In this document: positions 6,412 to 6,529 of the stretch, piece after piece
Layout of the letters: the number at the start of each line of letters is the position of its first letter
How positions within the stretch are numbered: position 1 is the stretch's first letter
Assembly: GCA_030592025.1 (NCBI GenBank)
Contig: JAUUZX010000087.1
Span: 1-6,529 of the forward strand
Reading direction: 5' to 3'
Length of the DNA stretch: 6,529 bases
Source: a bacterium
Lineage (GTDB): Bacteria; Krumholzibacteriota; Krumholzibacteria; LZORAL124-64-63
Notes under the pieces: generated by a model
Databases searched by the model: none
Told to the model about the DNA's origin: nothing
What the model saw: only the letters and a program-made list of their open reading frames with translations
Position numbers and translations under genes: made by a program

Positions 6412-6439
6412 GGAAGCAGACGCAGATTTCCGCTCCGGT

Positions 6440-6529
6440 CCTTCGCAAATGATCTCGATAGCGACTTCACTTATTCCTTTCCTTGAGCATGATGATGCCA
6501 ACCGTGCCCTAATGGGATCAAACATGATG
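6440..6529 (+). pseudogene. rpoB: Internal fragment of RNA polymerase beta subunit (rpoB), 5' part missing
   Basis: The plus strand encodes [20 protein letters not shown] followed by [10 protein letters not shown] up to the window edge. This matches the highly conserved RpoB active-centre region; the Glu-Asp of EHDD corresponds to E. coli beta Glu813/Asp814. Similarity stops abruptly before 6440: the preceding codons read DFRSG where RpoB normally has a YMDV-like stretch. The frame stays open back to an ATG at 6389, directly after a TAA and with GGGAGG upstream, but those residues ([16 protein letters not shown]) are not RpoB and lie over the rplU promoter. GC is 41 of 90 bases and third positions are 14 of 30 GC, far below the neighbouring genes. 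The final Met (Gln in most RpoB, GSNMQ) recalls Bacteroidota-type proteins from memory only. It is either a chimeric contig end or an inserted foreign fragment. Confidence 0.85.

Follow-up and report, generated by a model that had tools for sequence, protein, structure and literature searches.

According to a review of metagenome assembly, assembly graphs can become linked through shared k-mers or through sequencing errors, which gives rise to chimeric contigs (PMC7299287). The stretch of DNA analyzed here (hereafter the window) comprises 6,529 nucleotides of contig JAUUZX010000087.1 from a genome of the phylum Krumholzibacteriota. It resembles the contigs considered in the review in that sequence of two genomes appears to share one contig, but differs from them in that only the last 93-113 bases are foreign, a single chimeric read would be enough to produce them, and the case is known from sequence alone. 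The second described system is the bacterial rpoB gene as modeled by TIGR02013, which 31 residues encoded at the right edge of the window match; this tail occupies only positions 611-641 of the 1238 positions of the model, has neither a start nor coding sequence ahead of it, and scores 54.1 bits (E=5.6e-15) against a cut-off of 801. We conclude with high confidence that the final 93-113 bases form a chimeric contig end, in which a piece of the rpoB of another bacterium was attached to the rplU flank of a Krumholzibacteriia genome as an artefact of the data rather than by an event in the organism.

The match to RpoB lies at 6437-6529 on the forward strand and corresponds to residues 9-39 of a 39-residue frame that opens at 6413 and continues to 6529. 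The matching part is open and clean and encodes conserved RpoB sequence up to the last base of the window. A search of PDB sequences with the tail returned 48 distinct sequences at E≤1, every one named RNA polymerase and all but one specified as the beta subunit (the remaining entry gives no subunit), while a Pfam search of this short piece at E≤1e-3 gave no match. The tail is therefore confirmed, by its position in the TIGR02013 model and by the PDB matches, as what the original prediction had claimed, an internal segment of RpoB that starts in the middle of the protein and runs opposite to its neighbors, the seven complete genes of the window being on the reverse strand. The 31 codons open mid-gene and run off the edge of the window. 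The upstream half of a complete rpoB is missing and the flank of rplU stands in its place, as had also been proposed; alignment of this flank to the relative L001 extends to position 6416.

Positions 1-6416 (genes on the reverse strand) constitute a native, Krumholzibacteriia-like block that forms one collinear alignment with L001 at 78% identity. Its gene content comprises a partial gene that matches lipid A acyltransferase, followed by seven complete genes identified by profile as a sugar-phosphate isomerase of the KpsF/GutQ family (kdsD-like), kdsC, kdsA, pyrG, kdsB, rpmA (L27) and rplU (L21). The KdsA of the window shares 84% identity with its counterpart in L001. Among the 80 loci listed, the top 15 range from 68 to 84% identity and the 16th falls to 58%; 11 of the 15 are labeled Krumholzibacteriia or Krumholzibacteriota and four are labeled only 'bacterium'. 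The native part also includes the rplU promoter, TTGACG-18-TATTAT (6382-6411, reverse strand); the -35 box is TTGACG in nine of the ten relatives printed and TTGACT in the other.

The alignment with L001 stops abruptly at 6416, five bases beyond the -35 box of rplU. Between this last aligned base and the rpoB match lies a junction zone of 20 bases (6417-6436, no strand assigned) that can be ascribed to neither side. The breakpoint consequently falls between 6416 and about 6437-6440, where the first clear rpoB codons appear, and this interval sits inside the wider limits first proposed for it (from the -35 box at 6411 to about 6440). No word of at least 13 bases from 6411-6445 was shared with the rpoB loci examined, and a single 12-mer was shared with one locus (L197), elsewhere in that locus, about one such match being expected by chance. 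Exact searches restricted to viral contigs gave no match to a 28-mer spanning the junction or to a 32-mer from the rpoB part of the tail.

When rplU and its promoter were used as a DNA query against 80 genomes of the phylum, 51 matched, and the best 30 were taken as loci that extend at most about 1.5 kb to each side. Upstream of rplU, 26 of the 30 carry trxB in the reverse orientation, which makes a divergent rplU/trxB pair (the trxB name rests on TIGR01292, thioredoxin-disulfide reductase, applied to genes of L005 and L002). In three loci (L235, L236 and L237) an 80-residue query detected no trxB within about 1.5 kb, and another (L245) is cut off within rplU. At E≤1e-4, none of the 30 loci has an rpoB match upstream of rplU, nor does any of ten longer loci searched alongside; the join is absent from the relatives examined. 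L001 continues for 6.7 kb past the end of the alignment and its trxB match starts 314 bases upstream of rplU. Since the window holds 266 bases upstream of rplU, the tail occupies the place of the L001 spacer. Note that the spacer beyond the -35 box varies widely (GC 0.30-0.86 in the ten relatives printed); the point at which alignment to L001 ends is therefore no proof of a join by itself, and the abrupt loss of collinearity is weakened as evidence to that extent.

Base composition changes along the same stretch. The GC content is 68.3% in positions 1-6411, 49.2% in the interval originally delimited (6412-6529) and 46.2% in 6437-6529; the value of 46% originally given agrees with the last 93 bases. 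The GC content at third codon positions (GC3) is 0.467 in the 30 codons of the tail at 6440-6529 and 0.81-0.94 in the seven complete genes, where the lowest of 1625 stretches of 30 codons reaches 0.70 and none falls below. The same codons of 32 rpoB genes of the phylum (L081, L096 and L196 being left out) have GC3 values of 0.50 in L090, 0.60 in L218, 0.63 in L091 and 0.77-1.00 in the others. The phylum itself therefore includes rpoB genes with low GC3 in this segment, which counts against a foreign reading.

A more direct comparison is offered by the rpoB genes of the phylum itself. A match to the fragment was present in 64 of 80 phylum genomes, and we read 35 loci, 12 from genomes found through kdsA and 23 new ones, these being among the most tail-like, so that the choice favors similarity. 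The QMISIATS of the tail appears in none of the 35. At the position of its SNMM, 33 of the 35 have CNMQ, the exceptions being L081 (SNMM) and L196 (SNMQ). Furthermore, one string of 29 residues is common to ten of the 12 loci reached through kdsA, and the tail lacks it. Over 30 codons, identity between the tail and the same 32 rpoBs used for GC3 is 73-80% at the protein level and 63-74% at the DNA level. The two sides of the join thus point to different lineages, one collinear with L001 and the other unlike all 35 rpoB reads, and we conclude from comparison of these sequences that the tail is foreign to the lineage of the window.

These data bear on the alternative in which the tail would come from the rpoB of the window organism itself, or from an additional copy of that gene, moved beside rplU by rearrangement or by misassembly within the genome. 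The case nearest to contrary evidence is a genome, G006, that has two rpoB matches, one of which (L081) combines the Krumholzibacteriia-type PKQIVSAAASLIPF with SNMM and also carries the phylum's KQIVSAAASL. However, at the DNA level L081 and the tail share 76% identity across 85 bases, and the rpoB of the genome of L001 (L094) has a GC3 of 0.97 in these codons. With QMISIATS missing throughout the phylum reads and the 29-residue string missing from the tail, we regard an origin in the organism's own rpoB as extremely unlikely. The matches in G006 lie on separate contigs, L081 at G006:C73:6075-6182 and L096 at G006:C278:13693-13785. L081 resembles the rpoB of the phylum but reads SNMMSQAV, and L096 reads KQLVSVAAALIPFLEN; either a mixed bin or an unusual variant would explain the pair.

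A foreign tail could also have been acquired by the cell, the second alternative named in the original prediction. The Krumholzibacteriia genome would then harbor real foreign rpoB DNA in the spacer between rplU and trxB, set against the rplU promoter. It could be a dead remnant, or mark the beginning of a larger acquired piece, perhaps a longer rpoB that continues beyond the window. The open and clean frame is compatible with such an insertion, the spacer is a tolerant place for one, and the edge of the window hides whatever follows. Against it stand the 30 rplU loci devoid of rpoB within about 1.5 kb upstream and a window in which no mobile-element gene is visible among the genes identified. 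Moreover, a chimeric read would produce just such a pattern, with a start in mid-gene directly at the flank of a promoter and no more than 113 bases between it and the edge. We consider a genuine insertion very improbable.

The mis-joined contig, which had been put forward as the simplest reading, is instead supported by the conjunction of an rpoB that is not native, the stop in collinearity, the presence of trxB in most relatives and of rpoB in none of those examined, and the confinement of the tail to no more than the outermost 113 bases. The right edge of the window would be the contig end, and the join could have originated in the library, as a chimera formed by ligation or PCR, or during assembly, through a false link of reads or k-mers. 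The tail is shorter than one read of 150 bases, so at such a read length a single chimeric read could carry all of it. Under a chimeric contig end, the tail would have no function, and the interest of the locus would be limited to data quality; most likely, this is an ordinary artefact and not a biological feature. A scrap of RpoB at a contig edge can nevertheless mislead marker-gene counts, binning and studies of gene neighborhoods, and the last 113 bases of the record should therefore be trimmed or flagged.

The donor was not found in genome searches with the fragment (overlapping sets of 19, 145, 296, 247, 40, 80 and 146 genomes), which gave at most 51.3 bits, the best match being in the phylum of G017 (locus L018, labeled Omnitrophica). 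A protein search, in which a length filter kept only proteins of about 22-70 residues, gave 295 matches, and the best of the 120 listed (P0001) scored 54 bits with 90% identity over 78% of the query. Matches centered on Bacteroidota frequently show the SNMM ending, and those in the plasmid collection are headed by Phocaeicola, Bacteroides and Parabacteroides at 84-87% identity over 30-31 residues. On these two observations, our guess would be a Bacteroidota-like donor. Common contamination was considered and rejected: E. coli gave no match to the tail at E≤1e-5, and the plasmid and phage records (63 and 13 by protein, 25 plasmid records by DNA) are ordinary matches to a conserved region. The motif DADF in the junction zone was likewise discarded as a clue to the donor, given that the distance from its start to the P of the PxQ motif is 18 residues in Bacteroidota-type rpoB (L108 and L151), which also has DADF, and 7 residues in the tail. 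In P0002, a short RpoB-like protein of 68 aa, this distance is 8 residues; DADFP leads directly into DVSPTQ, and compared with L108 and L151 the segment is shortened by about 10 residues.

Two minor observations were made along the way. A locus labeled Bordetella parapertussis (L029, from a MAG) sits among Acidobacteria-like kdsA matches, and the rpoB of its genome (L177) resembles that of a locus labeled Bryobacterales (L178); the Bordetella label is probably wrong. In the rplU leader of the window (6264-6381, reverse strand), a possible hairpin is directly succeeded by an element made of a run of T and then GTGTG or GCGTG. A search for Rfam families in the window at E≤1 gave no match. A similar element is located at the same place in L001 (for example, TTTTTTGTGTG), L002, L008 and other relatives, and it may represent an undescribed ribosomal-protein leader.
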